Assembly: GCF_030867095.1 (NCBI RefSeq)
Contig: NC_081828.1
Coordinates: 15,001 to 79,000, forward strand
Direction: 5' to 3'
Origin: Alligator mississippiensis
Lineage: Eukaryota > Chordata > Crocodylia > Alligatoridae
DNA: 64,000 bases
Part shown: positions 2,620 to 27,118 of the stretch, one piece after another
Numbering within the stretch: the first letter of the stretch is position 1
Layout of the letters: the number at the start of each line of letters is the position of its first letter
Position numbers and translations under genes: made by a program
The notes under the pieces: generated by a model
What the model saw: the letters and a program-made list of their open reading frames with translations, nothing else
Databases searched by the model: none
Told to the model about the DNA's origin: nothing

Positions 2620-4470
2620 CTCCAGTGTCCGGAAAAGATAAACGTTGCCCACGCGGACAAAGGCCTTCTCCTGGTTTAGAGAGAGGAGGCCGACATCAAG
2701 GCCAAAGAACTCGCTAGCCATGAGTAGATCCCGCAGCAGGAACAGGTTCTCTTGAATGATCCTGCCCGGCACGCAGTAGCTCTGCTCAAGCCCGGTGAGA
2801 GAGGCCATGACCGCACGGAGGCAGGTGGCCAGCGCTTTGGCCACAATCTTCTAGTCCGCACACAGCAGGGATACCGACCACCAGTTCTTCATGTAGACCA
2901 GTTCTCCCTTCTTAGGCAGCAAGGTCAGCACCGCACGGCGGCAAGTGATCGGCAAGACCTTCTCGGCGAGCCTCTCCTGGAAAACGCGCAAGAGCCTGGG
3001 ACCGAGAAGAGGCCAGAAGGTCTTGTAAAACTCGGCAGGCAGCCCGTCAAGGCCCGGCGCTTTGCCGGAGGCGAGGCCGGCCGTGGCAGCCAGCAGCTCT
3101 TCCAGGGACAATTCCCGCTCAAGCTCACCAGCCTCCAGGGCATCGACACACAGTAGGCCCTCGTGCAGTTCCCGCGTGGCCTCGGGGCACGACAGCTCGG
3201 CCGTGAACAGGTCGCAACAAAACGCAACGGCACGTTCGCGTACTTCGCCCGGCTCTGTAATGACCCGGCCCTCAGGAGCCTTGAGATGATCCAAGATGTT
3301 GCTTGCTGCTCTCCGCCGCTCCAGATTGAAAAAGAAGTGACTCGGGGCATCAGTTCCCACCAGCTCCTAGCAGTTGCCACAGACCCTTGCGTCACGGGCC
3401 GCGCTCTCCGCCAAGTCGTGCAGGCATTTCCTGCGGAGCCGGAGGCTCTCGCTCAGTGCTGCGTCGCTGCCAGCGGCCAGCAGAGCAGCCTCGAGCTCCG
3501 CCACATCCTCCTCCAACTCCCAGATACGGCAGCGCGTCTCGTTTGCGACCAGCTGGGTGTATTGCTGGCAGAAGACTCAGATCTGTACCTTACCCACATC
3601 CCACCACAGCTTGCATGAGAACTGGCTCGGTCTCGCAGCCTCCCACCTCCGCCAAAAGTGGGCAAAGCAGTCCCGGAAATAACAGTCCTGAAGCAGGCTG
3701 ACTTTGAAACACCAATACGGTGCCCGTGCACGGGCTCTCCCCGGCAGGCTCAGTTCGCTGAAGGCCAGGCCATGATCTGGTAGACCCGAGGGAGCGATGC
3801 GGCTGCTGCGCACAAGTGGTAGGTGGTGCGTGGTGATATAAAGTCGATAAAGGCGACCTATGGTGAGACCACCGATACCCATCTTGGCCTAGGTGTACTG
3901 GCGCTCATCAGGATGCAAGGCTCGCCACACGTCCATGAGGTCTGCCCCCTCCAGGACAGCTTGCAGCTTGCGAGCGGAAGGCAGATGGGGCTCAGGCCCT
4001 GTGAGGTCAAGACACAGAGCAGTGGTGCAGTTGAAATCCCCACCGAGCAGGAGCAGGTCATCATCCTCGCTAGTATCGCGCAGGAGGGCAGCCAAGGTCT
4101 CGCAGAAAGCGACTCTCTGCTAGCCATCGGAGGGCGTGTAGATGTTGACGAGCAGCAGGCAGTGTTGTGCGAGGGTGACGCGGATGGTCAGCAGGCGGCC
4201 AGGGACGACCTCCTGTGGCACCGCCGTGTCAAGCTGCAGCTGCGGTGATAAGAGTGTCGCGACCCCAGTGCTGAGGTTGGTGCTATGGCTCAGGAACACC
4301 TCTCCTCGCCAGGGAGCCCACCAGGCCGCCTGGTTGAAGCTGTCGGAGTGCGTCGCTTCTAGGAAGGCAACAGCCAGCCTCTTCTGTCGCAGGAGCTCCA
4401 GGACGGCCTCGCGCTTCACCGAGTCTCGACAGCCATTGACGTTGATGGTGCAAATAGTTGTGGCTACCAT
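2620..4470 (-). pseudogene. Broken LINE ORF2 (endonuclease plus partial RT), copy A
   Basis: This is the decayed counterpart of the intact ORF2 of copies B and C. The endonuclease N-terminus (TINVNGCRDSVKREAV) is readable near 4470-4120, where a stop follows the NIYTPSDG motif. Endonuclease and linker pieces follow in shifted frames to about 3400. RT fragments are readable from about 3360 to 2620 and include the GKAPGLDGLP and CVPGR motifs. There are several frameshifts and stops, and the catalytic YADD region has been lost with the chromosome end. It cannot encode a working protein. Confidence 0.9.
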
Positions 4471-4617
4471 GGGTGTGGGTGTGGGAGAGGAAGAGCAAAG
4501 CAAAGTGCGGGTGGAAGAGCAAACACCCAAGAACAGAGCAAGGCAATACACACAGCTCAGGGAAGGACTACCGTGCCCTACTCTAGTCAAGCAACATGCC
4601 CAGGCCCCACTCCACTC

Positions 4618-4899
4618 TCACCCTCTAGCCAAGCTTGTCCAAACGGTAGGCCATCTGTCGTCTCCCGCGATCCTACTGCATGAGCTTGACTGTTCCCTGC
4701 CAACCTTGACAAACACTTTAGGGTCCACACACCACTGGGTGATGCGCCCTGCTACGTTCTTCTGCCCCATAGTTAGCTTCAGCAAGGTCAGGAGTCCCCC
4801 ATAGTCAGGAGAGACCCAGGGGGGCTCCGCCAGCTTGGGGTGGATGTTGCCTACGGAAGAGCAGCGTGGTTGCACCCCAGTGTGGGCGTTTGCCCACAA
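4618..4899 (-). pseudogene. Second small 5' LINE ORF, frameshifted (copy A)
   Basis: The first part (MWANAHTGVQ to about DPKVFVK) matches the 105-aa frame of copies B and C. After VKVG the sequence shifts frame and the helical, lysine/arginine-rich C-terminus is lost. The homology break between identical and diverged sequence (about 4788) falls inside this frame. Confidence 0.45.
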
Positions 4900-5074
4900 C
4901 TACAGTGTCAACACCCTCAACGTCCACGCACATCGCCCGCCTCTCGTAGTCCGAGGCAAGGACCACCTCCATGAGCACGTTCCCTGTCTTGTTGGGGGGG
5001 GGAGCGGCCATCCCGCTCACGACGTCTATTGCGAAACTCAGAGAGCTGGATCTCCATCTCGCTAACTTCCCCAT
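4805..5074 (-). CDS. Small 5' LINE ORF (copy A)
   Basis: An 89-aa frame from MGKLARW, identical in copies A, B and C. It lies between the homopyrimidine tract and ORF2 and may be a very short ORF1 or part of one. The frame is open further upstream into the low-complexity tract, but that extension is phenylalanine/serine-rich and is unlikely to be translated as a real domain. I recognise no motif in it. Identity among the copies reflects recent copying and does not show selection. Confidence 0.35.
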   Translation of the reverse strand: MGKLARWRSSSLSFAIDVVSGMAAPPPNKTGNVLMEVVLASDYERRAMCVDVEGVDTVVVGKRPHWGATTLLFRRQHPPQAGGAPLGLS

Positions 5075-5186
5075 CTGATCCGCTAGGCTAGGGCGTGACC
5101 AAAGGGGCAGCAGGCTCTCCCGCCACCACCGGGGCCAGGCCACGGGAAGAGAGACATTCGCCACTATCCCTATTCTATTATATTCT

Positions 5187-6977
5187 AAAAAAAAGAAAAC
5201 AAAAGAAAGAAAAGAAAAATAAAAAAAACAAAGAAAAGAGAAACAAAAGAAAAGAAAAAACAAAAGAAAATAGAAACAAAAGAAAAGAAAAAGAAAAGAA
5301 AAGAAATGCAGGGAGCTTGGAGAGAGAAACAGAAGAGGATGCACGGACCTTGAGGGGGCCAGAGGCACGTTAAGGCACCACAGTGCTTAAGGGGACATGC
5401 AGGACGCTGAGGGAGCCAAGGGGGGAAGTGCACAGGGGGCTTGACAGGACATGAGAAGAGATGCCGGCACCTTCGGGGGGAAGAGGGGGGATGCAGGGAC
5501 CTTCAGGGGCAAACAGGGCAGATGCAAGGACCTTCAAGGGGACACAGGGAACATGCAGGAGCCTTCAAGGGCAAGGACGGGGGATGCAGGGGGCTTCACC
5601 ACCAAAGACAATGAAAAGAAAAGAAAAGAAAAGAAAAGAGAATAGAATGAAAAAAAAGAAAGAAAACGAAAAGAAAGAAAAGGAAGAAGCAAAAAGAAAA
5701 AACAAAAGAAAGAAAAGAAAGAAAGAGATAAAAGAAAAAGACAGAAAAGAAAAGAAAAAACTTAACAAAGAAAAGAATAGAAATAAAACAAAAAAGAAAA
5801 GAAAAACAAAAGAAAAGAAATGGAAGAAAAAAGAAAAAAGAAAAGAAAAGGAAAGAAAAAGTAATAAAAGAAAAGAAAGAAGCAAAAGAAAAGAAAACAG
5901 AAAAAAGATAAAGAAAAAAAGAAACGAAAACAAAGAAAAGAAAAAAGAAATAAAAGAAAGCAAAAAAAATAAAAGAAAAAGACAAAAGAAAAGAAAGAAA
6001 AGAAAAAGAAATGCAGGGAGCTTGGAGAGAGAAACAGAAGAGGATGCAGTGACCTTCAGGGGTCACAGGGAACATGCAGCAGCCTTCAAGGGCAAGGACA
6101 GGGGATGCAGGGGGCTTCAGCACTAAAGACAATGAAAAGAAAAGAAAAGAAAAGAAAAGAAAAGAAAAGAAAAGAGAAAAAACAAAAAGAAAAGGAAAAA
6201 ACAAAAACAAAGAAAACAAAACAAAAAAATAGAAAAGAAAAAGAAATAAAACAAAACAAGAAAGAAAAGAAAAGAAACAAAAAAGAAAAGTAAAGAAAGA
6301 AAAGAAAGACAAGAAAAACAAAAGAAAAAAGACAACAAAGAAAAGAAAAAGAAATAAAGGAAAGAAGAGAAAACAAAAAAAAAAAGAAAAACAAAAAGAA
6401 AAGAAACCAGAGAAAAAATAACAAAGAAAAGAAAAGAAAAAGAAAAAACAAAAGAAAGAAAAGAAAGTAAAAAATAAAACAAAAAAAGAAAAGAAAAACA
6501 AAAAGAAAAAGAAAAGAAGAATACCAAAAGTAAGGAAAAGAAAAGAAGAGAAAGAAAAGAAAAGGAAAAAAAAAAGAAAAAGAAAAGAAATAAAAGAGAA
6601 AGAAATAAAGGAAAGAAAAAAAAGAAAAGAAAGAAAAGTAAAGAAAAAAGTTAAGAAATAACAAAAACAAGAAAAAGAAAAAGAAAAGAGAAAAAAGAAA
6701 AAGAAAAAAGAAGAGAACAGCAAAAGAAAAAACACAAAGAAAAAAAGAAGAAAAAAGAAAACAAAAAGAAAATAAAAAGAAAGAAAACAAAAAAGAAAAA
6801 GAAAAGAAAGAAAAGAAAGAAAAAAAAAAGAAAAGAAAAGAAAAAAAACACAAAAGAATAAAACAAATAAAAGAAAACAGAAAATAAAAGAAAAGTAAAG
6901 AAAAAGGATAAGAGAAAAAAAGAAAGAGAAAAGAAAAAAGAAAGAAAAGAAAAAGAAATAAAACAAAATAAAAGAAG
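5187..6977. repeat. GAAAA-rich homopurine tract with GC islands, unit A
   Basis: On the plus strand this is almost pure A/G (AAAAG, AAAGA, AAAAAG words). Two GC-rich islands interrupt it, at about 5307-5620 and 6010-6128. The islands carry the ATGCAGGGA-CCTT and GGACATGCAGG words of the minisatellite at 23288-26100. The tract is identical to the start of tracts B (from 11962) and C (from 20014), apart from the count of one AAAAG array (8, 9 and 5 units). It ends exactly where the 3' end of LINE B begins. Long frames within it are artefacts of base composition. Confidence 0.93.
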
Positions 6978-7001
6978 ACTTTTTTTGACTTTTAAGAGAC
7001 C

Positions 7002-7007
7002 TTTATT
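7002..7007 (-). promoter_or_regulatory. LINE B poly(A) signal AATAAA
   Basis: AATAAA on the minus strand lies about 25 bases before the end of the element. It is followed by CTTAAAAGTC and a second AAAAGTC-like word, then the homopyrimidine tract of unit A. The same signal is at 14833-14838 and 15052-15057. Confidence 0.85.
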
Positions 7008-7287
7008 CCCCGGAGGGTGATGACTCGGAGCCAGTCAAAAGCATGTACAAGGACGCCCAAAGCTCTGGGCCTCGTGGACAAGGCCTGGGCTCATGGCCTG
7101 CAAGGCCTGCCCGTACACGCTAGACAAAAAAACACCAACCAACACAACGAACATAAGGACTATTTACAGTATTTACAGTTCTGCCAGCAGGGACACCCAT
7201 GGAGGCCTCCGGGGTCGACCCGCACGAGCAAAAGTCCAGGGCCTCGGCCCGCTTGACGCGTCTCTGCGGCTTGAGCAGCCGGTGGCA

Positions 7288-10200
7288 TCACAGAACGAGG
7301 ATCAGGCGTCCCGCCTCGACCCGGCACAGCACCCCCTCGAGGGCCCAGCGCTCCTCAAAGGCGGGCACCGTCCGCCGGAGGACAGCGTGCTCAAACTCGA
7401 GCGAGAGGCGGGCCCGCACCAGCAGGCGGAAGAGCTGCAGGGCGTCGACCATCCCGGTGCCGCTGAGCTGGTTTCGCCGGCTCTTCAGGGTGGCCATCTT
7501 GGCCTGGCCCAGCAGGAAGTTGGCCAGGCTGACCGTGGCCCGCTCGGCCGCCCGGTATGGAAAGGAGTGGACGTAAGCGTCTTCGGAGAGGTCACGGCCC
7601 AGTACCCGAAGCAGTGCGCCCAGGGCGGCAAAGAGAGGCTGCAGCCGGGGGCAGTCGAGGAAGGCGTGGAAAATGTCCTCGTCCAGCACCCCCGGGCAGA
7701 AGGGGCAGGCCGCCGAGGCCGCTGGGTCCAAGTGACGCACAAAGGTGCCGGTGGCCAGGATGCCATGCACGAGCCGCCACTGCAGGTCGCCGGTCTTCTT
7801 GGCGATGGGCGCCTTATACAGCGTGCGCCACGCCGGGGTCCCGGGCCGCGCCAGGCGCCGCCGCCACGCGGTGTCCGGGCGGCCGGCGAGCACCTGGGCG
7901 TGCCGGGTGCGCACCACCCACATGTAGAGGCCCTTGCGGGGCAGGGTGCCAAAAGGGCAGCCCGTATTGCTGCTGGGGGGCACCGGGAGCCTGAGCAGCG
8001 TGTTGGGCCGCTCGGCCAGCTCGCCGGGTACCGCTGGGATGACGGGTAGCGGTGGGAAGGCGTCTTCTGCGGCGTCTGCGGCGGGGAGGGGCCGGCGAGT
8101 CTGGAGATGGGCTTCCAGGGCGGTCGCTGCCTCCGCCGGGAGGGCGGCCCTAACGGCCCGCAGAAGCCGCCCCGCGGTGCGGACGGAGCGCATGGCCAGC
8201 CGGGCAGCCAGGGCCTCGGGTGACAGCCAGTCCGACCGAGCGGGGTCCAGGAGGTGCTCCAGGCGGGTGGAGCGCGCCTCGACGAGAGCTGCCGTGAGGC
8301 TGGCGGAGGCCAGGCTCGGCACGACACGGTGCAGGGCCGGGTTGTGGACCAAGGGCTCTCGAAGGAGCTGCGGGAACCGCAGGTGCCTGGCCTGGGGACA
8401 GAGATGGAAGGCCGCCCGCCAGGCCCGCACCACGCTGCGGTAGAACGGGGGAAGGACCGCCCCGTTCAGGAAGGTGAGGTCCAGTTGAAACAGCTCCCGG
8501 TCAAAGCCGAGGCCCCCCACTCGCCGCAGGAAACGGCACGCCAGCTGTCGCCACGGGAGGTGGCCCTCGGTGTACAGGAGCCGCTGGAGGGCCTGCAGCC
8601 GATAGGCGGCCACCCTGCTGGCCAGATCGATCAGGCCCTGGCCCCCCTCGCCGGTGGGCAGGTAGAGGGCAGCTCGTGGGAGCCAGTGGCGTCCGTCCCA
8701 CAGGAAATCGACCAGGAGCCGCTGCAGTCGCTCCAGTAGCTGCGGCGGAGGGTCCAGCACCGCGCAGCGGTGCCACAGGGTGGCCGCCGCCAGGTTATTG
8801 ATGACGAGGACGCGCCCCCGGTAGGAAAGGCTGGGCAGGCGCCAGCGCCACCGCTGCAGGCGGGCCTCCACTCCCTCCTCGAGGCCGTCCCAGTTGCGCG
8901 CCATGAAGGTCGTCGGCCCCAGGAACACGCCCAAGACCTTGAGGCCCTCGCGGCGCCAGGCGAGGCCCCCCGGCAAGTCCGGCGGAGGCCTGCCAGTCCA
9001 TGCGCCAAGCAGCAGAGTGTCACTCTTGCCCCAGTTGATGCGGGCGGAGGAGGCGCGCTCGTAGGCCCGCTGGCAATCTGCCAGAGCCCGCACGTCTTCC
9101 CGGGTGGCGAGGAAGACGGTGACGTCGTCCGCGTAGGCCGACAGCCGGAGACGAGGGCCAGCGGACGGGTCCGTGGCCGATGGCAGGGCCACCCCACTCA
9201 GGCGGCGGCGCAGCGCGTGTAACAGCGGCTCGATGGCCAGGGCGTAGAGCATGCCCGACAGCGGACAGCCCTGGCGAATGCCCCTGCGCGCGGGGAACGG
9301 AGCGCAAAGCACCCCGTTCACCTTGAGCAGGCTGGAAATGTCCCGGTACAAGACCCGGAGGGCCCCGGTGAAGAGGGGCCCAAAGCCAAAGGCCTCCAGC
9401 GTGCGGAAGAGGTAGGCGTGGCCCACGCGGTCAAAGGCCTTCTCCTGGTCGAGAGAGAGGAGGCCGACGTCGAGGCCAAAGAGCTCGCTGGCCGTGAGCA
9501 GGTCCCGCAGCAGGAACAGGTTGTCTTGTATGGTCCTGCCCGGCACGCAGTAGCTCTGCTCGGGCCCGGTGAGAGAGGCCATGACCGCGCGGAGGCGGGC
9601 GGCCAGCGCTTTGGCCAGAATCTTGTAGTCCGCGCACAGCAGGGAGACCGGCCGCCAGTTCTTCATGTAGCCCAGGTCTCCCTTCTTGGGCAGCAGGGTC
9701 AGCACCGCTCGGCGGCAGCTGATGGGCAAGACCTTGTCGGCGAGGCTCTCCTGGAAAACGCGCAGGAGGCTGGGGCCGAGGAGAGGCCAGAAGGTCTTGT
9801 AGAACTCGGCAGGCAGCCCGTCGAGGCCCGGGGCTTTGCCGGAGGCGAGGCCGGCCGTGGCGGCCGCCAGCTCTTCCAGGGACAAGTCCCGCTCCAGCTC
9901 GCCGGCCTCCAGGGCATCGAGACGCGGTAGGCCCTCGTGGAGTTCCCGCGTGGCCTCGGGGCACGACGGCTCGGCCGCGAACAGGTCGCGATAGAAGGCG
10001 ACGGCACGTTCGCGGACTTCGCCCGGCTCTGTAATGACCCGGCCCTCAGGAGTCTTGACATGGTCCAAGACTTTGCTCGCTGCCCGCCGCCGCTCCAGGT
10101 CGAAAAAGAAGCGGGTCGGGGCGTCGGTTTCCACCAGCTCCTGGCAGCGGGCGCGGATCCTCGCGCCGCGGGCCGCGCTCTCCGCCAAGTCGCGCAGGCA

Positions 10201-11244
10201 TTTCCTGCGGAGCCGGAGGCTCTCGCTCAGTGCCGCGTCGCTGCCAGCGGCCAGCAGAGCAGCCTCGAGCTCCGCCACGTCCTCCTCCAACTCCCGGATA
10301 CGGCGGCGCGTCTCGTTCGCGGCCAGCTGGGTGTACTGCTGGCAGAAGGCTCGGGTCTGGACCTTGCCCACGTCCCACCACAGCTTCCAGGAGGAGTGGC
10401 TCGGTCTCGCAGCCTCCCACCTCCGCCAAAAGTGGGCAAAGCAGTCCCGGAAATAAGAGTCCTGGAGCAGACTAATGTTCAAACACCAATACGGTGCCCG
10501 TGCACAGGCTCTCCCCGGCAGGCTCAGTTCGCTGAAGGCCAGGCCATGATCTGATAGACCCGAGGGAGCGATGCGGCTGCTGCGCAGGAGTGGCAGGTGG
10601 TGCCTGGTGATATAAAGGCGGTCGAGGCGAGCCATGGTGAGACCGCCGGCACTCGTCTTGGCCCAGGTGTACTGGCGCGCATCGGGATGCAGGGCTCGCC
10701 AGACGTCCACGAGGTCTGCCCCCTCCAGGGCAGCTTGCAGCTTGCGAGCGGAGGGCAGGTGGGGCTCAGGCCCTGTGCGGTCGAGGCGCGGGGCAGTGGT
10801 GCAATTGAAATCGCCCCCGAGGAGGAGCAGGTCATCATCCTCGCTAGCGTCGCGCAGGAGGGCAGCCAAGCTCTCAAAGAAAGCGACCCTCTCCTGGCCA
10901 TCGGAGGGCGCGTAGATGTTGACGAGCAGCAGACGGTGTTGTGCGAGGGTGACGCGGACGGTCAGCAGGCGGCCGGGGACGACCTCCCGCGGCACCGCCG
11001 CGTCAAGCTGCAGCTGCGGCGATAAGAGTGTCGCGACCCCCGCGCGGAGGCTGGTGCCGTGGCTCAGGAACACCTGTCCTCGCCAGGCAGCCCGCCAGGC
11101 CGCCTGGTTGAACCTGTCAGAGTGGGTCTCTTGTAGGAAGGCGATGGCCAGCCTCTTCTGCCGCAGGAGCTCCAGGACGGCCTCGCGCTTCACCGCGTCT
11201 CGACAGCCGTTGACGTTGAAGGTGCCAATGGTTGTGGCTGCCAT
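7288..11244 (-). CDS. LINE ORF2: endonuclease, reverse transcriptase (copy B)
   Basis: An intact frame of 1318 aa from the ATG of MAATTIGTFNVNG; the frame is open for 20 more codons upstream but has no ATG there. Residues about 1-235 are an apurinic-endonuclease-like nuclease with QETHSD, VNIYAPSDG, GGDFNC (near 143) and SDHG (near 230). The RT follows: NWRPVSLL (near 526), LDQEKAFDRV, IRQGCPLSG (near 653) and the catalytic YADD (near 703). Near 1180-1198 is a C-terminal knuckle, CX2CX9HX4C. In this family the nuclease nicks the target and the RT copies the element RNA onto the nicked end. No stops or frameshifts are seen. It differs from copy C by about 14 residues. Confidence 0.95.
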   Translation of the reverse strand: MAATTIGTFNVNGCRDAVKREAVLELLRQKRLAIAFLQETHSDRFNQAAWRAAWRGQVFLSHGTSLRAGVATLLSPQLQLDAAVPREVVPGRLLTVRVTLAQHRLLLVNIYAPSDGQERVAFFESLAALLRDASEDDDLLLLGGDFNCTTAPRLDRTGPEPHLPSARKLQAALEGADLVDVWRALHPDARQYTWAKTSAGGLTMARLDRLYITRHHLPLLRSSRIAPSGLSDHGLAFSELSLPGRACARAPYWCLNISLLQDSYFRDCFAHFWRRWEAARPSHSSWKLWWDVGKVQTRAFCQQYTQLAANETRRRIRELEEDVAELEAALLAAGSDAALSESLRLRRKCLRDLAESAARGARIRARCQELVETDAPTRFFFDLERRRAASKVLDHVKTPEGRVITEPGEVRERAVAFYRDLFAAEPSCPEATRELHEGLPRLDALEAGELERDLSLEELAAATAGLASGKAPGLDGLPAEFYKTFWPLLGPSLLRVFQESLADKVLPISCRRAVLTLLPKKGDLGYMKNWRPVSLLCADYKILAKALAARLRAVMASLTGPEQSYCVPGRTIQDNLFLLRDLLTASELFGLDVGLLSLDQEKAFDRVGHAYLFRTLEAFGFGPLFTGALRVLYRDISSLLKVNGVLCAPFPARRGIRQGCPLSGMLYALAIEPLLHALRRRLSGVALPSATDPSAGPRLRLSAYADDVTVFLATREDVRALADCQRAYERASSARINWGKSDTLLLGAWTGRPPPDLPGGLAWRREGLKVLGVFLGPTTFMARNWDGLEEGVEARLQRWRWRLPSLSYRGRVLVINNLAAATLWHRCAVLDPPPQLLERLQRLLVDFLWDGRHWLPRAALYLPTGEGGQGLIDLASRVAAYRLQALQRLLYTEGHLPWRQLACRFLRRVGGLGFDRELFQLDLTFLNGAVLPPFYRSVVRAWRAAFHLCPQARHLRFPQLLREPLVHNPALHRVVPSLASASLTAALVEARSTRLEHLLDPARSDWLSPEALAARLAMRSVRTAGRLLRAVRAALPAEAATALEAHLQTRRPLPAADAAEDAFPPLPVIPAVPGELAERPNTLLRLPVPPSSNTGCPFGTLPRKGLYMWVVRTRHAQVLAGRPDTAWRRRLARPGTPAWRTLYKAPIAKKTGDLQWRLVHGILATGTFVRHLDPAASAACPFCPGVLDEDIFHAFLDCPRLQPLFAALGALLRVLGRDLSEDAYVHSFPYRAAERATVSLANFLLGQAKMATLKSRRNQLSGTGMVDALQLFRLLVRARLSLEFEHAVLRRTVPAFEERWALEGVLCRVEAGRLILVL

Positions 11245-11356
11245 GGGGGTGGGTGTGGGAGAGGAGGAGCAAAGCAGAGTGCGGGTGGAAGAGCGAGCAC
11301 CCAAGAGCAGAGCAAGGCAATACAGACAGGTCAGGGAAGGCCTACCGTGCCCTACT

Positions 11357-11674
11357 CTAGTCGAGGGACCCGCCCAGGCCCCACTCCACTCTCACCCTCT
11401 GGGCAAGCTTGTCCAGACGGTAGGCCATCTGACGTGTGCCCCGATCTTGCTTCATGAGCTTGACTGCCGCCCTGGCAGCCTTGACAAACACTTTGGGGTC
11501 CGCACACCACTGGGTGATGTGCCCCGCTACATTTTTCTGCCCCTTGGTTAGCTTCAGCAAGGACAGGAGTCCCCCATAGTCAGGAGAGACCCAGGGGGGC
11601 TCCGCCAGCTTGGGGTGGATGTTGCCTACGGAAGAGCAGCGTGGTTGCACCCCAGTGTGGGCGTTTGCCCACAA
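11357..11674 (-). CDS. Small 5' LINE ORF, 105 aa (copy B)
   Basis: A frame just upstream of ORF2, identical in copy C. The C-terminal half is probably helical and basic (AARAAVKLMKQ, YRLDKLAQRVRVEW). It begins at a TTG directly after a TAG, and the first internal ATG lies deep in the frame, so a conventional start is lacking. It overlaps the 89-aa frame at 11580-11849 in another register. A frameshift joining the two would give a short ORF1-like product, but this is inference. No zinc knuckle or RNA-recognition motif is visible. Confidence 0.35.
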   Translation of the reverse strand: MWANAHTGVQPRCSSVGNIHPKLAEPPWVSPDYGGLLSLLKLTKGQKNVAGHITQWCADPKVFVKAARAAVKLMKQDRGTRQMAYRLDKLAQRVRVEWGLGGSLD

Positions 11675-11849
11675 CTACAGTGTCAACACCCTCAACGTCC
11701 ACGCACATCGCCCGCCTCTCGTAGTCCGAGGCAAGGACCACCTCCATGAGCACGTTCCCTGTCTTGTTGGGGGGGGGAGCGGCCATCCCGCTCACGACGT
11801 CTATTGCGAAACTCAGAGAGCTGGATCTCCATCTCGCTAACTTCCCCAT
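11580..11849 (-). CDS. Small 5' LINE ORF, 89 aa (copy B)
   Basis: A frame starting MGKLARWRSS, identical at nucleotide level in units A, B and C. The sequence contains ASDYERRAMCVDVEGVDTV and a proline/glycine-rich end. It is the only candidate for the 5' part of an ORF1, and it is far shorter than the ORF1 of described Tx1 elements. Coding status is uncertain. Confidence 0.35.
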   Translation of the reverse strand: MGKLARWRSSSLSFAIDVVSGMAAPPPNKTGNVLMEVVLASDYERRAMCVDVEGVDTVVVGKRPHWGATTLLFRRQHPPQAGGAPLGLS

Positions 11850-11961
11850 CTGATCCGCTAGGCTAGGGCGTGACCAAAGGGGCAGCAGGCTCTCCCGCCA
11901 CCACCGGGGCCAGGCCACGGGAAGAGAGACATTCGCCACTATCCCTATTCTATTATATTCT

Positions 11962-14810: not shown

Positions 14811-15026
14811 GACTTTTGACTTTTAAGAGACCTTTATTCCCCGGAGGGTGATGACTCGGAGCCAGTCAAAAGCATGTACAAGGATGCCCGAAGCTCTGGG
14901 CCTCATGGACAAGGCCTGGGCTCTTGGCCCTCAAGCCCTGCCCGTACACTCTAGACAAAAAAAAAAACAACCAACACAACGAACATAAGGACTATTTACA
15001 GTATTTACAGTTCTGCCAGCAGGGAC
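14811..15026 (-). mobile_element. 5'-truncated LINE fragment (3' end only)
   Basis: About 0.2 kb matching the 3' UTR end of copies B and C, with AATAAA (14833-14838) and the AAAAGTC-type tail. It has the same orientation as its neighbours. It starts, in element direction, at the TGTCCCTGCTGGC word and directly abuts the tail of copy C; its own tail abuts tract B. Such 5' truncation is the usual product of incomplete target-primed reverse transcription. Its sequence differs slightly from both neighbours. Confidence 0.9.
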
Positions 15027-15339
15027 AAAGACTTTTGACTTTTAAGAGACCTTTATTCCCCGGAGGGTGATGACTCGGAGCCAGTCAAAAGCATGTACAA
15101 AGACGCCCGAAGCTCTGGGCCTCATGTACAAGGCCTGGGCTCGTGGCCTGCAAGGCCTGCCCGTACACTCTAGACAAAAAAAAAAACAACCAACACAAAG
15201 AAACATAAGGACTATTTACAGTATTTACAGTTCTGCCAGCAGGGACACCCATGGAGGCCTCCGGGGTCGACCCGCACGAGCAAAAGTCCAGGGCCTCGGC
15301 CCGCTTGACGCGTCTCTGCGGCTTGAGCAGCCGGTGGCA

Positions 15340-18300
15340 TCACAGAACGAGGATCAGGCGTCCCGCCTCGACCCGGCACAGCACCCCCTCGAGGGCCCAG
15401 CACTCCTCAAAGGCGGGCACCGTCCGCCGGAGGACAGCGTGCTCAAACTCGAGCGAGAGGCGGGCCCGCACCAGCAGGCGGAAGAGCTGCAGGGCGTCGA
15501 CCATCCCGCTGCCGCTGAGCTGGTTTCGCCGGCTCTTCAGGGTGGCCATCTTGGCCTGGCCCAGCAGGAAGTTGGCCAGGCTGACCGTGGCCCGCTCGGC
15601 CGCCCGGTATGGAAAGGAGTGGACGTAAGCGTCTTCGGAGAGGTCTCGGCCCAGTACCCGAAGCAGTGCGCCCAGGGCGGCAAAGAGAGGCTGCAGCCGG
15701 GGGCAGTCGAGGAAGGCGTGGAAAATGTCCTCGTCCAGCACCCCCGGGCAGAAGGGGCAGGCCGCCGAGGCCGCTGGGTCCAAGTGACGCACAAAGGTGC
15801 CGGTGGCCAGGATGCCGTGCACGAGCCGCCACTGCAGGTCGCCGGTCTTCTTGGCGATGGGCGCCTTATACAGCGTGCGCCACGCCGGGGTCCCGGGCCG
15901 CGCCAGGCGCCGCCGCCACGCGGTGTCCGGGCGGCCGGCGAGCACCTGGGCGTGCCGGGTGCGCACCACCCACATGTAGAGGCCCTTGCGGGGCAGGGTG
16001 CCAAAAGGGCAGCCCGTATTGCTGCTGGGGGGCACCGGGAGCCTGAGCAGCGTGTTGGGCCGCTCGGCCAGCTCGCCGGGTACCGCTGGGATGACGGGTA
16101 GCGGTGGGAAGGCGTCTTCTGCGGCGTCTGCGGTGGGGAGGGGCCGGCGAGTCTGGAGATGGGCTTCCAGGGCGGTCGCTGCCTCCGTCGGGAGGGCGGC
16201 CCTAACGGCCCGCAGAAGCCGCCCCGCGGTGCGGACGGAGCGCATCGCCAGCCGGGCAGCCAGGGCCTCGGGTGACAGCCAGTCCGACCGAGCGGGGTCC
16301 AGGAGGTGCTCCAGGCGGGTGGAGCGCGCCTCGACGAGAGCTGCCGTGAGGCTGGCGGAGGCCAGGCTCGGCACGACACGGTGCAGGGCCGGGTTGTGGA
16401 CCAAGGGCTCTCGAAGGAGCTGCGGGAACCGCAGGTGCCTGGCCTGGGGACAGAGATGGAAGGCCGCCCGCCAGGCCCACACCACGCTGCGGTAGAACGG
16501 GGGAAGGACCGCCCCGTTCAGGAAGGTGAGGTCCAGTTGAAACAGCTCCCGGTCAAAGCCGAGGCCCCCCACTCGCCGCAGGAATCGGCACGCCAGCTGT
16601 CGCCACGGGAGGTGGCCTTCGGTGTACAGGAGCCGCTGGAGGGCCTGCAGCCGATAGGCGGCCACCCTGCTGGCCAGATCGATCAGGCCCTGGCCCCCCT
16701 CGCCGGTGGGCAGGTAGAGGGCAGCTCGTGGGAGCCAGTGGCGTCCGTCCCACAGGAAATCGACCAGGAGCTGCTGCAGTCGCTCCAGTAGCTCCGGCGG
16801 AGGGTCCAGCACCGCGCAGCGGTGCCACAGGGTGGCCGCCGCCAGGTTATTGATGACGAGGACGCGCCCCCGGTAGGAAAGGCTGGGCAGGCGCCAGCGC
16901 CACCGCTGCAGGCGGGCCTCCACTCCCTCCTCGAGGCCGTCCCAGTTGCGCGCCATGAAGGTCGTCGGCCCCAGGAACACGCCCAAGACCTTGAGGCCCT
17001 CGCGGCGCCAGGCGAGGCCCCCCGGCAAGTCCGGCGGAGGCCTGCCAGTCCATGCGCCAAGCAGCAGAGTGTCACTCTTGCCCCAGTTAATGCGGGCGGA
17101 GGAGGCGCGCTCGTAGGCCCGCTGGCAATCTGCCAGAGCCCGCACGTCTTCCCGGGTGGCGAGGAAGACGGTGACGTCGTCCGCATAGGCCGACAGCCGG
17201 AGACGAGGGCCAGCGGACGGGCCCGTGGCCGATGGCAGGGCCACCCCACTCAGGCGGCGGCGCAGCGCGTGTAACAGCGGCTCGATGGCCAGGGCGTAGA
17301 GCATGCCCGACAGCGGACAGCCCTGGCGAATGCCCCTGCGCGCGGGGAACGGAGCGCAAAGCACCCCGTTCACCTTGAGCAGGCTGGAAATGTCCCGGTA
17401 CAAGACCCGGAGGGCCCCGGTGAAGAGGGGCCCAAAGCCAAAGGCCTCCAGCGTGCGGAAGAGGTAGGCGTGGCCCACGCGGTCAAAGGCCTTCTCCTGG
17501 TCGAGAGAGAGGAGGCCGACGTCGAGGCCAAAGAGCTCGCTAGCCGTGAGCAGGTCCCGCAGCAGGAACAGGTTGTCTTGTATGGTCCTGCCCGGCACGC
17601 AGTAGCTCTGCTCGGGCCCGGTGAGAGAGGCCATGACCGCGCGGAGGCGGGTGGCCAGCGCTTTGGCCAGAATCTTGTAGTCCGCGCACAGCAGGGAGAC
17701 CGGCCGCCAGTTCTTCATGTAGCCCAGGTCTCCCTTCTTGGGCAGCAGGGTCAGCACCGCTCGGCGGCAGCTGATGGGCAAGACCTTGTCGGCGAGGCTC
17801 TCCTGGAAAACGCGCAGGAGGCTGGGGCCGAGGAGAGGCCAGAAGGTCTTGTAGAACTCGGCAGGCAGCCCGTCGAGGCCCGGGGCTTTGCCGGAGGCGA
17901 GGCCGGCCGTGGCGGCCGCCAGCTCTTCCAGGGACAAGTCCCGCTCCAGCTCGCCGGCCTCCAGGGCATCGAGACGCGGTAGGCCCTCGTGGAGTTCCCG
18001 CGTGGCCTCGGGGCACGACGGCTCGGCCGCGAACAGGTCGCGATAGAAGGCGACGGCACGTTCGCGGACTTCGCCCGGCTCTGTAATGACCCGGCCCTCA
18101 GGAGTCTTGAGATGGTCCAAGACTTTGCTCGCTGCCCGCCGCCGCTCCAGGTCGAAAAAGAAGCGGGTCGGGGCGTCGGCTTCCACCAGCTCCTGGCAGC
18201 GGGCGCGGATCCTCGCGCCGCGGGCCGCGCTCTCCGCCAAGTCGCGCAGGCATTTCCTGCGGAGCCGGAGGCTCTCGCTCAGTGCCGCGTCGCTGCCGGC

Positions 18301-19296
18301 GGCCAGCAGAGCAGCCTCGAGCTCCGCCACGTCCTCCTCCAACTCCCGGATACGGCGGCGCATCTCGTTCGCGGCCAGCTGGGTGTACTGCTGGCAGAAG
18401 GCTCGGGTCTGGACCTTGCCCACGTCCCACCACACCTTCCAGGAGGAGTGGCTCGGTCTCGCAGCCTCCCACCTCCGCCAAAAGTGGGCAAAGCAGTCCC
18501 GGAAATAAGAGTCCTGGAGCAGACTAATGTTCAAACACCAATACGGTGCCCGTGCACAGGCTCTCCCCGGCAGGCTCAGTTCGCTGAAGGCCAGGCCATG
18601 ATCTGATAGACCCGAGGGAGCGATGCGGCTGCTGCGCAGGAGTGGCAGGTGGTGCCTGGTGATATAAAGGCGGTCGAGGCGAGCCATGGTGAGACCGCCG
18701 GCGCTCGTCTTGGCCCAGGTGTACTGGCGCGCATCGGGATGCAGGGCTCGCCAGACGTCCACGAGGTCTGCCCCCTCCAGGGCAGCTTGCAGCTTGCGAG
18801 CGGAGGGCAGGTGGGGCTCAGGCCCTGTGCGGTCGAGGCGCGGGGCAGTGGTGCAATTGAAATCGCCCCCGAGGAGGAGCAGGTCATCATCCTCGCTAGC
18901 GTCGCGCAGGAGGGCAGCCAAGCTCTCGAAGAAAGCGACCCTCTCCTGGCCATCGGAGGGCGCGTAGATGTTGACGAGCAGCAGACGGTGTTGCGCGAGG
19001 GTGACGCGGACGGTCAGCAGGCGGCCGGGGACGACCTCCCGCGGCACCGCCGCGTCAAGCTGCAGCTGCGGCGATAAGAGTGTCGCGACCCCCGCGCGGA
19101 GGCTGGTGCCGTGGCTCAGGAACACCTGTCCTCGCCAGGCAGCCCGCCAGGCCGCCTGGTTGAAACTGTCAGAGTGAGTTTCTTGTAGGAAGGCGATGGC
19201 CAGCCTCTTCTGCCGCAGGAGCTCCAGGACGGCCTCGCGCTTCACCGCGTCTCGACAGCCGTTGACGTTGAAGGTGCCAATGGTTGTGGCTGCCAT
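15340..19296 (-). CDS. LINE ORF2: endonuclease, reverse transcriptase (copy C)
   Basis: An intact 1318-aa frame from MAATTIGTFNVNG, with the same endonuclease, RT (YADD) and CX2CX9HX4C motifs as copy B. About 14 scattered amino-acid differences separate the two, none in the catalytic motifs I can see. Examples are SDR/SDS in the endonuclease, ARL/TRL in the RT and ERW/ECW near the C-terminus. Together with the intact 3' end, it looks competent for retrotransposition. Confidence 0.95.
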   Translation of the reverse strand: MAATTIGTFNVNGCRDAVKREAVLELLRQKRLAIAFLQETHSDSFNQAAWRAAWRGQVFLSHGTSLRAGVATLLSPQLQLDAAVPREVVPGRLLTVRVTLAQHRLLLVNIYAPSDGQERVAFFESLAALLRDASEDDDLLLLGGDFNCTTAPRLDRTGPEPHLPSARKLQAALEGADLVDVWRALHPDARQYTWAKTSAGGLTMARLDRLYITRHHLPLLRSSRIAPSGLSDHGLAFSELSLPGRACARAPYWCLNISLLQDSYFRDCFAHFWRRWEAARPSHSSWKVWWDVGKVQTRAFCQQYTQLAANEMRRRIRELEEDVAELEAALLAAGSDAALSESLRLRRKCLRDLAESAARGARIRARCQELVEADAPTRFFFDLERRRAASKVLDHLKTPEGRVITEPGEVRERAVAFYRDLFAAEPSCPEATRELHEGLPRLDALEAGELERDLSLEELAAATAGLASGKAPGLDGLPAEFYKTFWPLLGPSLLRVFQESLADKVLPISCRRAVLTLLPKKGDLGYMKNWRPVSLLCADYKILAKALATRLRAVMASLTGPEQSYCVPGRTIQDNLFLLRDLLTASELFGLDVGLLSLDQEKAFDRVGHAYLFRTLEAFGFGPLFTGALRVLYRDISSLLKVNGVLCAPFPARRGIRQGCPLSGMLYALAIEPLLHALRRRLSGVALPSATGPSAGPRLRLSAYADDVTVFLATREDVRALADCQRAYERASSARINWGKSDTLLLGAWTGRPPPDLPGGLAWRREGLKVLGVFLGPTTFMARNWDGLEEGVEARLQRWRWRLPSLSYRGRVLVINNLAAATLWHRCAVLDPPPELLERLQQLLVDFLWDGRHWLPRAALYLPTGEGGQGLIDLASRVAAYRLQALQRLLYTEGHLPWRQLACRFLRRVGGLGFDRELFQLDLTFLNGAVLPPFYRSVVWAWRAAFHLCPQARHLRFPQLLREPLVHNPALHRVVPSLASASLTAALVEARSTRLEHLLDPARSDWLSPEALAARLAMRSVRTAGRLLRAVRAALPTEAATALEAHLQTRRPLPTADAAEDAFPPLPVIPAVPGELAERPNTLLRLPVPPSSNTGCPFGTLPRKGLYMWVVRTRHAQVLAGRPDTAWRRRLARPGTPAWRTLYKAPIAKKTGDLQWRLVHGILATGTFVRHLDPAASAACPFCPGVLDEDIFHAFLDCPRLQPLFAALGALLRVLGRDLSEDAYVHSFPYRAAERATVSLANFLLGQAKMATLKSRRNQLSGSGMVDALQLFRLLVRARLSLEFEHAVLRRTVPAFEECWALEGVLCRVEAGRLILVL

Positions 19297-19408
19297 GGGG
19301 GTGGGTGTGGGAGAGGAAGAGCAAAGCAGAGTGCGGGTGGAAGAGCGAGCACCCAAGAGCAGAGCAAGGCAATACAGACAGGTCAGGGAAGGCCTACCGT
19401 GCCCTACT

Positions 19409-19726
19409 CTAGTCGAGGGACCCGCCCAGGCCCCACTCCACTCTCACCCTCTGAGCAAGCTTGTCCAGACGGTAGGCCATCTGACGTGTGCCCCGATCTT
19501 GCTTCATGAGCTTGACTGCCGCCCTGGCAGCCTTGACAAACACTTTGGGGTCCGCACACCACTGGGTGATGTGCCCCGCTACATTTTTCTGCCCCTTGGT
19601 TAGCTTCAGCAAGGACAGGAGTCCCCCATAGTCAGGAGAGACCCAGGGGGGCTCCGCCAGCTTGGGGTGGATGTTGCCTACGGAAGAGCAGCGTGGTTGC
19701 ACCCCAGTGTGGGCGTTTGCCCACAA
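19409..19726 (-). CDS. Small 5' LINE ORF, 105 aa (copy C)
   Basis: Identical in protein sequence to the 11357-11674 frame and in the same position before ORF2. It has the same lack of an ATG near its start. Its function is unknown. Confidence 0.35.
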   Translation of the reverse strand: MWANAHTGVQPRCSSVGNIHPKLAEPPWVSPDYGGLLSLLKLTKGQKNVAGHITQWCADPKVFVKAARAAVKLMKQDRGTRQMAYRLDKLAQRVRVEWGLGGSLD

Positions 19727-19901
19727 CTACAGTGTCAACACCCTCAACGTCCACGCACATCGCCCGCCTCTCGTAGTCCGAGGCAAGGACCACCTCCATG
19801 AGCACGTTCCCTGTCTTGTTGGGGGGGGGAGCGGCCATCCCGCTCACGACGTCTATTGCGAAACTCAGAGAGCTGGATCTCCATCTCGCTAACTTCCCCA
19901 T
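19632..19901 (-). CDS. Small 5' LINE ORF, 89 aa (copy C)
   Basis: Identical to the 11580-11849 frame of copy B and overlapping the 105-aa frame in another register. It is a candidate short ORF1 piece with no recognised domain. Confidence 0.35.
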   Translation of the reverse strand: MGKLARWRSSSLSFAIDVVSGMAAPPPNKTGNVLMEVVLASDYERRAMCVDVEGVDTVVVGKRPHWGATTLLFRRQHPPQAGGAPLGLS

Positions 19902-20013
19902 CTGATCCGCTAGGCTAGGGCGTGACCAAAGGGGCAGCAGGCTCTCCCGCCACCACCGGGGCCAGGCCACGGGAAGAGAGACATTCGCCACTATCCCTAT
20001 TCTATTATATTCT

Positions 20014-23000
20014 AAAAAAAAGAAAACAAAAGAAAGAAAAGAAAAATAAAAAAAACAAAGAAAAGAGAAACAAAAGAAAAGAAAAAACAAAAGAAAATAG
20101 AAACAAAAGAAAAGAAAAAGAAAAGAAAAGAAATGCAGGGAGCTTGGAGAGAGAAACAGAAGAGGATGCACGGACCTTGAGGGGGCCAGAGGCACGTTAA
20201 GGCACCACAGTGCTTAAGGGGACATGCAGGACGCTGAGGGAGCCAAGGGGGGAAGTGCACAGGGGGCTTGACAGGACATGAGAAGAGATGCCGGCACCTT
20301 CGGGGGGAAGAGGGGGGATGCAGGGACCTTCAGGGGCAAACAGGGCAGATGCAAGGACCTTCAAGGGGACACAGGGAACATGCAGGAGCCTTCAAGGGCA
20401 AGGACGGGGGATGCAGGGGGCTTCACCACCAAAGACAATGAAAAGAAAAGAAAAGAAAAGAAAAGAGAATAGAATGAAAAAAAAGAAAGAAAACGAAAAG
20501 AAAGAAAAGGAAGAAGCAAAAAGAAAAAACAAAAGAAAGAAAAGAAAGAAAGAGATAAAAGAAAAAGACAGAAAAGAAAAGAAAAAACTTAACAAAGAAA
20601 AGAATAGAAATAAAACAAAAAAGAAAAGAAAAACAAAAGAAAAGAAATGGAAGAAAAAAGAAAAAAGAAAAGAAAAGGAAAGAAAAAGTAATAAAAGAAA
20701 AGAAAGAAGCAAAAGAAAAGAAAACAGAAAAAAGATAAAGAAAAAAAGAAACGAAAACAAAGAAAAGAAAAAAGAAATAAAAGAAAGCAAAAAAAATAAA
20801 AGAAAAAGACAAAAGAAAAGAAAGAAAAGAAAAAGAAATGCAGGGAGCTTGGAGAGAGAAACAGAAGAGGATGCAGTGACCTTCAGGGGTCACAGGGAAC
20901 ATGCAGCAGCCTTCAAGGGCAAGGACAGGGGATGCAGGGGGCTTCAGCACTAAAGACAATGAAAAGAAAAGAAAAGAAAAGAAAAGAGAAAAAACAAAAA
21001 GAAAAGGAAAAAACAAAAACAAAGAAAACAAAACAAAAAAATAGAAAAGAAAAAGAAATAAAACAAAACAAGAAAGAAAAGAAAAGAAACAAAAAAGAAA
21101 AGTAAAGAAAGAAAAGAAAGACAAGAAAAACAAAAGAAAAAAGACAACAAAGAAAAGAAAAAGAAATAAAGGAAAGAAGAGAAAACAAAAAAAAAAAGAA
21201 AAACAAAAAGAAAAGAAACCAGAGAAAAAATAACAAAGAAAAGAAAAGAAAAAGAAAAAACAAAAGAAAGAAAAGAAAGTAAAAAATAAAACAAAAAAAG
21301 AAAAGAAAAACAAAAAGAAAAAGAAAAGAAGAATACCAAAAGTAAGGAAAAGAAAAGAAGAGAAAGAAAAGAAAAGGAAAAAAAAAAGAAAAAGAAAAGA
21401 AATAAAAGAGAAAGAAATAAAGGAAAGAAAAAAAAGAAAAGAAAGAAAAGTAAAGAAAAAAGTTAAGAAATAACAAAAACAAGAAAAAGAAAAAGAAAAG
21501 AGAAAAAAGAAAAAGAAAAAAGAAGAGAACAGCAAAAGAAAAAACACAAAGAAAAAAAGAAGAAAAAAGAAAACAAAAAGAAAATAAAAAGAAAGAAAAC
21601 AAAAAAGAAAAAGAAAAGAAAGAAAAGAAAGAAAAGAAAAAAAAGAAAAGAAAAGAAAAGAAAAAAAACACAAAAGAATAAAACAAATAAAAGAAAACAG
21701 AAAATAAAAGAAAAGTAAAGAAAAAGGATAAGAGAAAAAAAGAAAGAGAAAAGAAAAAAGAAAGAAAAGAAAAAGAAATAAAACAAAATAAAAGAAGAAA
21801 AAAGAAAAAGAAAAGAAAACAACGAAAAGAAAAAACAAATAAAAGAAAACAAAGAAAAAACAAAAAGAGAAAACAAAGAAGAAAAAGAAAAGAAAAAAGA
21901 CAAAGAAAAATGAAAAGAAAACAAAAGAGAAAAGAAAAAAGAAAAAGAAATAAAAAAAGAAAAAGAAAAGAAAATAATAAAAGAAAAAAGAAATGAAAAG
22001 AAAAGAAAAAAAAAGGAAAGAAAAGAAAAAAGAAATAAAAGAATAGAAAGAAAAGAAAGAAAAGAAAGAAAAAGAAAAGAAAAACAACTGCAGGGAGCTT
22101 GGAGAAACAGAAGAGGATGCAGGGACCTTGAGGGGGCCAGAGGCACATTAAGGCACCACATTGCTTGAGGGGACATGCAGGAGGCTGAGGCAGCCAAGGG
22201 GGGAAGTGCACAGTGGGCTTCACAGGACATGAGAGCAGATGCCGACACCTTCAGGGGGGAAGAGGGGGAATACAGGGACCTTCAGGGGCGAATAGAACAG
22301 GTGCAGGGACCTTCAACGGGTCACAGGGAACATGCAGGAGCCTTCGGGGATGCAGGCGGCTTCAGCACCAAAGACAAAGACAAGAAAAGAAAAAAAAGAA
22401 AAAGAAAAAAGATAAGAAACAAAAGAGAAAAAAAGAAAAAAAGAAAAGAAAAAGAAAGAAAAGTAAAGAAAAAAAAGAAAGAAAAGAAAGTAAAAAGAAA
22501 TAAGAAAAAGAAGAAAAAGAAAAGAAAAGAGAAAAAAGAAAAAGAAAAAAGAAAAAGAAAAACAAAAGAGGATAGCAAAAGAAAAGAAAGAAAAAAAAGA
22601 AAAAAGAAAAGAAAAAAGAAAGAAAACAAAAAAGAAAAGAAAAAGAAAAAACAAAAAAGAAAAACAAAAGAAATAAAAGAAAAAAGTCAAGAAAAGAAAA
22701 GAAAGAAAAGAAAAAAGAAAAGAAAAGAAAACAAGGAAAAGAAAACAAAAAAGAATAAAACAAATAAAAGAAAACAAAGAAAAAAGAAAAGTAAAGAAAA
22801 AAGGAGAAGAGAAAAAAAGAAAAACAAAAGAAAAAGAAAAAAGAAAAAAGGAAGAAAAGAAAGAAAGAAAAGTAAAGAAAAAGAAGAGAAAAGAAAAAGA
22901 AATGAGAAAAAGAGAAAAGAAAAGAAAGAAGACAACAAAAAGAAATAAAACAAAAGAAAAGAAACAAAAGAAAGAAAAAAGAAAGAAAAGAAAAGAAATA

Positions 23001-23287
23001 AAAGAAAACAAAGAAAATAAAAAAGAAAAGAAAACAAAGAAAAGAAAAGAAAAAGAAAACAAAAAAGACAAAGAAAAGACAAATGAAAAAAGAGAAAAGA
23101 AAAAGAAATAAAACAAAAGAATAAAAGAAAAGAAAAAAGAAAAAGAAAAAGTAATGAAAAGAAAAGAAACAAGAAAAGAATAAAAGAAAAGAAAAAAGAA
23201 AAGAAAGGAAAAAGAAATAAAAGAATAGAAAGAAAAGAAAGAAAAGAAAAGAAAAAAAAGAAAGAAAAAAAAAGAAAAGAAAAAGAA
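20014..23287. repeat. GAAAA-rich homopurine tract with GC islands, unit C
   Basis: The longest of the three tracts. It is collinear with tract B up to the point matching 14810 (near 22865), then runs on as GAAAA-rich sequence to about 23287, where it passes into minisatellite. GC islands lie at about 20132-20440, 20837-20955 and 22086-22375. The AAAAG array near 20961 has 5 units where tract B has 9. Mirror-symmetric homopurine DNA of this length can form triplex structures. Confidence 0.93.
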
Positions 23288-26100: not shown

Positions 26101-26640
26101 GGTAAAGGCCTTGCTGGTTAAACAGCTCTTCCACTTTACAGAGCCAAGGGACACTGCCACTAAGGAACAAGGAGTGAAAGGGAGAAGGGGCAGGGTGTTA
26201 AAGGGCATTGCAGAGGGTTACAGGAATAAAATAAACGGGCCTTAAAAAGGCACACATGTTATGGACAGGCCACACGCTGGCTCGCTTAGTGCAAAAAATG
26301 AAGCAGCCAAAACCGGCCAAGTTCACAGGTCAAGGCAAGCAGCAGGACAAAGGGGGCAACTGGTGGGGGGCAGCAGGGACAGGTTGGGTAACAGAACAGA
26401 AGCGGGGCAAGCAAGTGCAAATATATGACCTTCGCCGTCAGTCTCTGTGGTGTCCGGTGCTCGGTCCAGTGTCAAACGAGCCAAAGAAACCAGACCTGTG
26501 TTTTATTAAACTGCAATATGCCAGGACCCAGGTTTTCAGCTCCCTGCACGTTCCTTCCTTTTCCAACAGGAAGGCAATTAGGCAGTGGGCAGCCCTGAGG
26601 AGCACCCCTGAACTTTCACTATGCATTTTCTACTTCGGGA
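26101..26640. other. Unassigned low-copy sequence
   Basis: The minisatellite words fade out and no repeat family is recognised. An open frame covers 26256-26693 on the plus strand, but it has no familiar motif and a composition typical of chance. AATAAAATAAA-like words lie near 26226. I cannot assign a function. Confidence 0.4.
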
Positions 26641-27118
26641 ACAGCTTTGTATCTTTTGAAAAAGTATCCTATCTAACCAAGGGCATAGAGTAGGTTGTTT
26701 AGGCAGGGGGAGATCGCTTGTTGCTTAGTTGCTAATTGCTGGCCTCGCTAGTAAGAAAAGCTATATCAACAAAGTCGGGGGAAAGTTGGAAGGGGGGTTA
26801 CTTGCGGGGAGTTGGAAAGAGGGGTTCCTTGCTAGGCTGGCTGAATACCAGGTGCTACATCAGCAAATTACCTATTAGGAAGCCCAGTTCAGCTGGCTAG
26901 GGGTAGTCTGTACCTAGGGGGCAAAGTGCGCATGGACCAAAAGAGGCAACCTCTAGTGACTGTACAGTGTGTAAGGCGAGAAGAGGCTATATAAGGCTGA
27001 TACCCACTTGGGTGGGTGTGCTTGCTTTGCAAACGATTGCCAAGCGCTGCTTTCTGTGCAGAAAAAAAGATTAAGTTGGATCCTTCACCCCTGTGTCTTT
27101 ACTGGCACAAGCGCACCA
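26640..27118 (+). mobile_element. Possible solo LTR
   Basis: A block with promoter-like structure. CTATATAAGG lies at 26987-26996, followed by a GC-balanced leader (GTGCTTGCTTTGC near 27015) and an end near CAAGCGCACCA. This resembles the U3-R-U5 layout of an amniote retroviral LTR. Ends and target duplication are not defined, so it could equally be another promoter-bearing repeat. Confidence 0.3.

Follow-up and report, generated by a model that had tools for sequence, protein, structure and literature searches.

The closest described vertebrate counterpart of the locus reported here is Tx1-1_ACar, a Tx1-named long interspersed nuclear element (LINE) recorded as telomere-specific in the green anole (Kojima and Jurka 2013, Repbase Reports, as cited in an excerpt of PMC10088271). 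Our locus is a head-to-tail array of Tx1-like LINEs next to a telomere of Alligator mississippiensis. It lies in a stretch of 64,000 nucleotides, hereafter the window, that covers positions 15001–79000 of the 220.9-Mb contig NC_081828.1 (C5 below) in an assembly of 2.35 Gb and 195 contigs. Both cases present a Tx1-named LINE at a vertebrate chromosome end. According to the excerpt, the anole element is inserted into telomeric repeats, whereas the alligator array occupies a pyrimidine-rich subtelomeric tract and its intact family is dispersed. Indeed, no unit in the window lies within TTAGGG repeats, the sole contact with them being a break inside open reading frame 2 (ORF2), and insertion into telomeric repeats of the SART and TRAS type was likewise not seen among these units. 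We argue that the array probably arose by serial retrotransposition into the subtelomeric tract, with 5' ends completed by recombination with a resident copy, and that a role in telomere maintenance is not supported.

Head-to-tail arrays of non-long-terminal-repeat (non-LTR) retrotransposons also lie at the chromosome ends of Drosophila, which has no telomerase (HeT-A, TART and TAHRE; excerpt of PMC5537684). By contrast, the alligator end has a TTAGGG cap and its LINE family is dispersed, so neither the restriction to ends nor the replacement of telomerase repeats seen with HeT-A applies to it. Hebe of bdelloid rotifers is another subtelomeric non-LTR element in a head-to-tail retroelement chain; in the excerpt of PMC2861651, it is not 5'-truncated and its chain is made of different elements, whereas in the alligator one truncated copy has spread with its flank. 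Sequence-specific Tx1 elements have been reported in crocodilians (excerpt of PMC5753468). A preliminary description of the window knew of no vertebrate Tx1 array of this kind; the anole record tempers that statement, and the titles and abstract openings of the open-licence literature searched yielded no LINE arrays in alligator subtelomeres and no description of an array resembling the present one.

For the mechanism, the nearest precedent comes from chimaeric insertions of Zorro3 in Candida and of mammalian L1, which took their 5' ends from an endogenous copy during target-primed reverse transcription (excerpt of PMC1965478). Five of the six pairs described there had the same orientation, and the intervening DNA was presumed deleted. 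The proposed alligator units are similar in that the 5' end of each new copy would come from an endogenous copy by recombination; the earlier outcome was mostly a presumed deletion, whereas here it would be duplication and a growing array.

Results

The window begins with the telomere, (CCCTAA)n on the plus strand with proximal variant repeats (1..2621; 436 units of 6 bp). Immediately inside it we found three LINE bodies and a 217-bp fragment of a LINE 3' untranslated region (UTR; 14810..15026). Every piece is on the minus strand, and all 3' ends therefore point toward the TTAGGG telomere, as the preliminary description had reported for an array in one orientation. The Drosophila HeT-A, TART and TAHRE arrays are oriented the opposite way. 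Unit 1 (2619..5170), an old-type (O) copy, has five stops relative to ORF2. Unit 2 (6977..11945, with its 3' terminus at 6977) and unit 3 (15027..19997) are both mosaics of an O 5' part and a young-type (Y) 3' part. The count of three bodies given earlier was correct, but the 3' half of unit 1 is gone, lost to the telomere, and all three are 5'-truncated in ORF1 at one identical place, the ORF1 remnant being out of frame and none of the units complete.

Each body is preceded, in the sense direction, by a pyrimidine-rich tract on the same strand (5171..6976 for unit 1, 11946..14809 for unit 2 and 19998..24040 for unit 3, the inner limit 24040 having been set by us). The third tract is full length and collinear, at 97.1% identity, with its single-copy counterpart at the opposite end of C5; the sense-direction upstream limits of the first and second tracts are insertion points, which we call X1 and X2, respectively. 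The spacers had been described as purely homopyrimidine. Their low-complexity parts are indeed 91–95% pyrimidine, but blocks of a 31-bp GC-rich repeat are embedded in between, and unit 3 is joined to the 217-bp fragment by TTT with no spacer at all. At the junctions near 6977, 14810 and 15027, the LINE 3' terminus is identical and reads ...CTTAAAAGTC with one further (A)nGTC after it. At the edge of unit 1, telomere repeats begin inside ORF2, where ...CTGGAGG is followed by GTTAGGG; this cap resembles one formed when telomere addition at GG healed a break.

Beyond the tracts lies a subtelomeric block, examined up to 31000 and given no strand (24041..31000), which consists of a degenerate GATGCAGGG...CTTGAGGGG repeat followed by further shared sequence and accompanies the old LINE at other chromosome ends. 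The degenerate repeat (24041–26100) resembles the 31-bp unit of the tracts and is a candidate alligator subtelomeric satellite.

The units are not uniformly alike. Units 2 (6983–14812) and 3 (15033–22860) are 98.98% identical over a 7849-bp alignment, and unit 1 (2619–6978) is 94.5% identical to unit 2. We scored diagnostic sites using resident copies from other chromosome ends as the O reference and a single young copy near the left end of contig C3 as the Y reference. Units 2 and 3 carried the O base at all 37 listed sites from the joint between tract and ORF1 (the first nine sites being the joint itself) to 11642 and 19694, respectively, and the Y base at the remaining listed sites from 11563 and 19615 on. 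The site at 11595 and 19647 is uninformative because unit 1, too, has the Y base there, as do units 2 and 3. Both units thus show one O-to-Y switch at nearly the same place, within 11564..11641 in unit 2 and 19616..19693 in unit 3 (minus strand). Over the whole later part, the Y base was present at 257 of 280 scored sites in unit 2 and at 256 of 278 in unit 3, whereas unit 1 was O at all 162 later sites scored.

Divergence is distributed accordingly along the units. When units 2 and 3 were compared, the tract and O 5' part together differed by 1 substitution over 3147 aligned bases and the Y part by 44 over 4587 (Fisher p 3.6e-9); for units 1 and 2, the corresponding counts were 0 in 2110 and 232 in 2169 for the later part. 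The near-identical 5' parts and unlike 3' parts suggest that the 5' ends were copied from a local resident, and the pattern as a whole argues for two different young sources whose 5' parts would have been copied locally. Simple duplication of a whole unit, considered as an origin, is weakened by this uneven divergence.

Alignment to the tract at the right end of C5 placed the insertion points. The unit 3 tract matches all of it, the unit 2 tract starts at about position 1181 (X2) and the unit 1 tract at about position 2249 (X1). There are three distinct 3' joints, all at the LINE 3' terminus, and these therefore point to separate reverse-transcription starts. X1, X2 and the site of the young C3 copy all lie between TTTC and TT in the uninterrupted tract (three out of three young sites read). 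Microsatellite-targeting elements of the Tx1 clade, Kibi and Koshi, were reportedly described by Kojima and Fujiwara in 2004. The alligator LINE is like them in having a Tx1-like ORF2 with an APE endonuclease and in inserting into simple-sequence pyrimidine DNA; it differs in its target, a TTTC-rich tract, a putative specificity read at subtelomeric sites only.

The young C3 copy (C3:20001–30000, local 3136–8928) lies inside the subtelomeric tract, upstream of a resident old copy. Its ORF2 pieces are 98.4 and 98.6% like that of unit 2, and it has a 5' inversion together with a 12-bp target duplication, TTTTCTTGCCTT. Such 5' inversions are attributed to twin priming. Its ORF1 is open across the point at which the window units are truncated. 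We had considered whether the tract might be the LINE's own 5' UTR, given its presence in each of the three window units; this was ruled out because ORF1 of the young copy continues through the truncation point, and the tract is part of the subtelomeric block.

To locate the old-type copy elsewhere, we searched the whole genome for the 33-mer spanning the joint between tract and truncated ORF1, allowing up to three mismatches and using the reversed sequence as a control. There were 26 matches, against none for the control. All 13 on the minus strand are no more than 36 kb from contig starts (C3, C4, C5 three times, C6, C7, C8, C10, C12, C13, C14 and C16); a further 13 are on the plus strand (C2–C10, C12, C13, C14 and C16), and the nine on C2–C10 all lie within 22 kb of the end. 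Terminal position was measured for 22 of the 26 matches, the other four being the plus-strand matches on C12, C13, C14 and C16, and a telomere-facing orientation fits all 26. For the old-type copy, these positions and orientations support the preliminary description.

Together, the junction matches cover 24 contig ends. At a 25th, the left end of C9, the LINE is present with the first 43 query bases unmatched. Junction matches were missing from eight of the 32 ends of C1–C16, namely from C1, C11 and C15 at both ends and from C2 and C9 at the left. The readable parts of C1 left, C1 right, C2 left and C11 left contained neither the LINE nor the 24041–26100 sequence, although some of the sequence retrieved there consists of N, so that absence is not established. 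The window end alone had more than one junction match, although contigs that stop inside the block could hide more. We also observed that contigs stop without telomere repeats just after (C2 right), shortly beyond (C3 right, where a pyrimidine tract again follows the old LINE) or inside (C6 right) the resident LINE; the assembly tends to break within this block.

The flank travels with the LINE. Window sequence 24041–26100 was found at eight other ends with 94–96% identity (one partial match) and at the right end of C5 with 99.9% over a partial match. Resident copies are 91–100% alike over overlapping stretches. Unit 1 is 99.6% identical to the resident at the opposite end of C5, which, together with the 99.9% flank over the part read, suggests that the two C5 ends recently exchanged sequence. 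That opposite end shows the single-copy arrangement, with a lone resident and an uninterrupted 4.1-kb tract. An old-type query listed at least 37 places; of the 12 at 91% identity or more, 11 proved terminal by measurement and the last lies at 59.84 Mb on C13, and the remaining 25, at 88%, were all internal. Among the matches listed, the old-type copy itself occurs only at chromosome ends and in a single orientation, and its truncation breakpoint and flank recur at many chromosome ends and at no internal place. The truncation point common to about 24 ends therefore indicates one insertion that later spread along with its flank: the resident is evidently a single old 5'-truncated insertion carried in a subtelomeric block.

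The intact family behaved differently. A genome search with ORF2 scored 34 of 51,279 first-look candidates, and unit 3 was itself absent from the matches, making the count a lower bound. At least 34 matches were obtained, all intact and with 99–100% amino-acid identity, and 33 of the 34 were internal among the matches listed. Pooling the places from the ORF2 and old-type queries gave at least 64 distinct places, 51 of them internal, with 25 on the plus and 26 on the minus strand. The young family is about 11% diverged from the resident. Judged by these figures, the intact family is young and dispersed through the genome. Copies scattered in random orientation had been named beforehand as evidence against an array specific to the chromosome end, and this is the pattern of the intact family.

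Twelve of the 51 listed internal copies form six same-strand pairs, where about 0.03 pairs within 30 kb would be expected by chance. Tandem insertion is therefore not peculiar to telomeres. Five pairs are spaced 6647–6734 bp apart and one 14,339 bp. The five close pairs are consistent with head-to-tail full-length dimers. Close pairs of near-identical ORF2 copies lie at 182.88 Mb on C1, 45.03 Mb on C2, 223.57 Mb on C3, 36.10 Mb on C4 and 47.11 Mb on C6.

The ORF2s of unit 2 (7288..11244) and unit 3 (15340..19296), both on the minus strand, are open for 1367 codons (1318 counted from Met). They are intact and almost identical, as first described, with 28 nucleotide differences in 3954 (99.3% identity; dN 0.0049, dS 0.0133). 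Pfam domains Exo_endo_phos (APE endonuclease) and RVT_1 (reverse transcriptase) scored above the cut-off, and zf-RVT, a zinc-binding tail, slightly under it. The best solved-structure match by sequence was the LINE-1 ORF2 protein. The best protein match was an A. mississippiensis protein named 'transposon TX1' (85% identity over 80% of the query), and the Tx1 assignment follows this name. Members of the Tx1 clade carry an ORF1 with a CCHC zinc knuckle upstream of ORF2 and, though not every one of them, insert sequence-specifically. ORF1 of the young C3 copy shows a CX2CX4HX4C (CCHC) motif (Pfam zf-CCHC, E 0.0088, below the cut-off); the part bearing it has been lost from all three window units.

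Elsewhere in the window, a Gammaretrovirus-like endogenous element occupies 41013–48064 on the minus strand, with reading frames in series for gag (p30, zinc knuckle), protease-reverse transcriptase, RNase H-integrase and env, and a 151-bp repeat pair at 48279–48569 adjoins it. Rfam searches at gathering scores gave no matches in the window.

Discussion

Serial insertion with completion from the resident copy would proceed as follows. RNA of the young LINE would have been inserted at least twice upstream of the resident, at X1 and then at X2, each time starting with target-primed reverse transcription after TTTC on the pyrimidine strand. In place of an ordinary 5' junction, the nascent cDNA would then have joined by homology to a resident copy, whether on the sister chromatid, on the homologue or at another chromosome end, and the resident 5' sequence and tract would have been copied behind the cDNA, leaving a head-to-tail unit without a seam. 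Between units 3 and 2, the 217-bp fragment may reflect a template jump or a separate or prior truncated insertion. The outermost unit would later have broken in ORF2 and been capped by telomerase-type repeats. The array would therefore be a by-product of targeting and recombination rather than a system of end maintenance.

Several observations weigh against this explanation. The interval containing the O-to-Y breakpoint is identical in units 2 and 3; this would be expected if unit 3 had recombined with unit 2, and equally if one hybrid had undergone duplication with subsequent conversion of its 3' part, or if conversion had homogenised the 5' parts afterwards. No target duplication is visible for units 2 and 3, and unequal crossing-over can also yield the same mosaic. 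The later parts of units 2 and 3 contain 23 and 22 O-like sites, respectively, where the one copy used as Y reference may have changed privately. The insertion preference is based on three young sites, all within subtelomeric tracts. The matches listed in the genome search are the best-scoring ones, so neighbours that are alike may be over-represented and the number of internal pairs inflated.

Tandem duplication by itself is the alternative that survives best, and we consider it possible though rather unlikely. One hybrid would have formed by unequal exchange between an end with a young insertion and an insertion-free end and then been duplicated by unequal crossing-over within the tract; afterwards, ectopic gene conversion would have split the ORF2s, or conversion would have homogenised the tracts. 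The breakpoint interval common to units 2 and 3 and their near-identical tracts fit this history, and chromosome ends do exchange sequence, as illustrated by unit 1 and the resident at the opposite C5 end, which are 99.6% identical. However, units 2 and 3 differ about 30 times more per base in their Y parts than in the tract. Exchange alone also does not predict that two 3' junctions should occupy different places in the tract (X1 and X2) and a third should adjoin a 3' UTR fragment, each of the three coinciding with the LINE 3' terminus.

Template jumping, in which reverse transcriptase reaches the 5' end of one RNA, continues at the 3' end of another and leaves head-to-tail copies in a single event, is known for R2-type enzymes. 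It would account for the joint at which the 3' terminus of unit 3 meets a truncated 3' UTR fragment across no more than TTT, and for the five internal same-strand pairs 6647–6734 bp apart. It leaves the resident 5' junction and tract of units 2 and 3 unexplained, because the young copy read has ORF1 there; as the source of the whole array it is very unlikely, and it may cover the fragment and internal pairs only.

We think an assembly artefact, with reads from different chromosome ends or haplotypes collapsed or chained, similarly improbable. The tracts are long and of low complexity, and at least three contigs end within the old LINE or a short way past it (the right ends of C2, C3 and C6). 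Against this, each unit has its own tract length and junction, substitutions separate the units outside the tract, and the array lies inside one 220.9-Mb contig, adjoining telomere repeats.

Finally, LINEs might build or extend this end in the manner known from Drosophila or Giardia, though through some unusual mechanism that leaves the 3' ends facing out. This proposal is favoured by the telomere adjacency and uniform orientation and was the view of the preliminary description, but it can hardly be upheld. TTAGGG repeats, attached inside unit 1, cap the end; that outermost unit is broken rather than ended at its 3' terminus; the intact family is dispersed in both orientations; and the 5' truncation point is common to the copies at other ends, which are therefore explained by one insertion rather than repeated targeting.

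A telomere-specific vertebrate Tx1 element was known already; what is new here is a subtelomeric landing tract that holds a resident fossil copy, with probable growth by chimaeric insertion. The locus also urges caution: a telomere-adjacent LINE array need not mean telomere maintenance. The second half of LINE integration is still poorly understood (excerpt of PMC6895275), and a genome in which young copies are numerous and partly paired offers natural material for testing it. An old LINE common to many chromosome ends may act as a homologous neighbour for new insertions, and the resulting mosaics would record how their 5' ends were completed. More speculatively, and on balance doubtfully, the young LINE may habitually insert beside a same-orientation copy and complete its 5' end by homologous copying, turning any one-copy pyrimidine tract into a head-to-tail array. 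If so, alligator subtelomeres, most of which hold a resident copy, would be standing nurseries for such arrays, and LINE integration would lengthen and homogenise chromosome ends.

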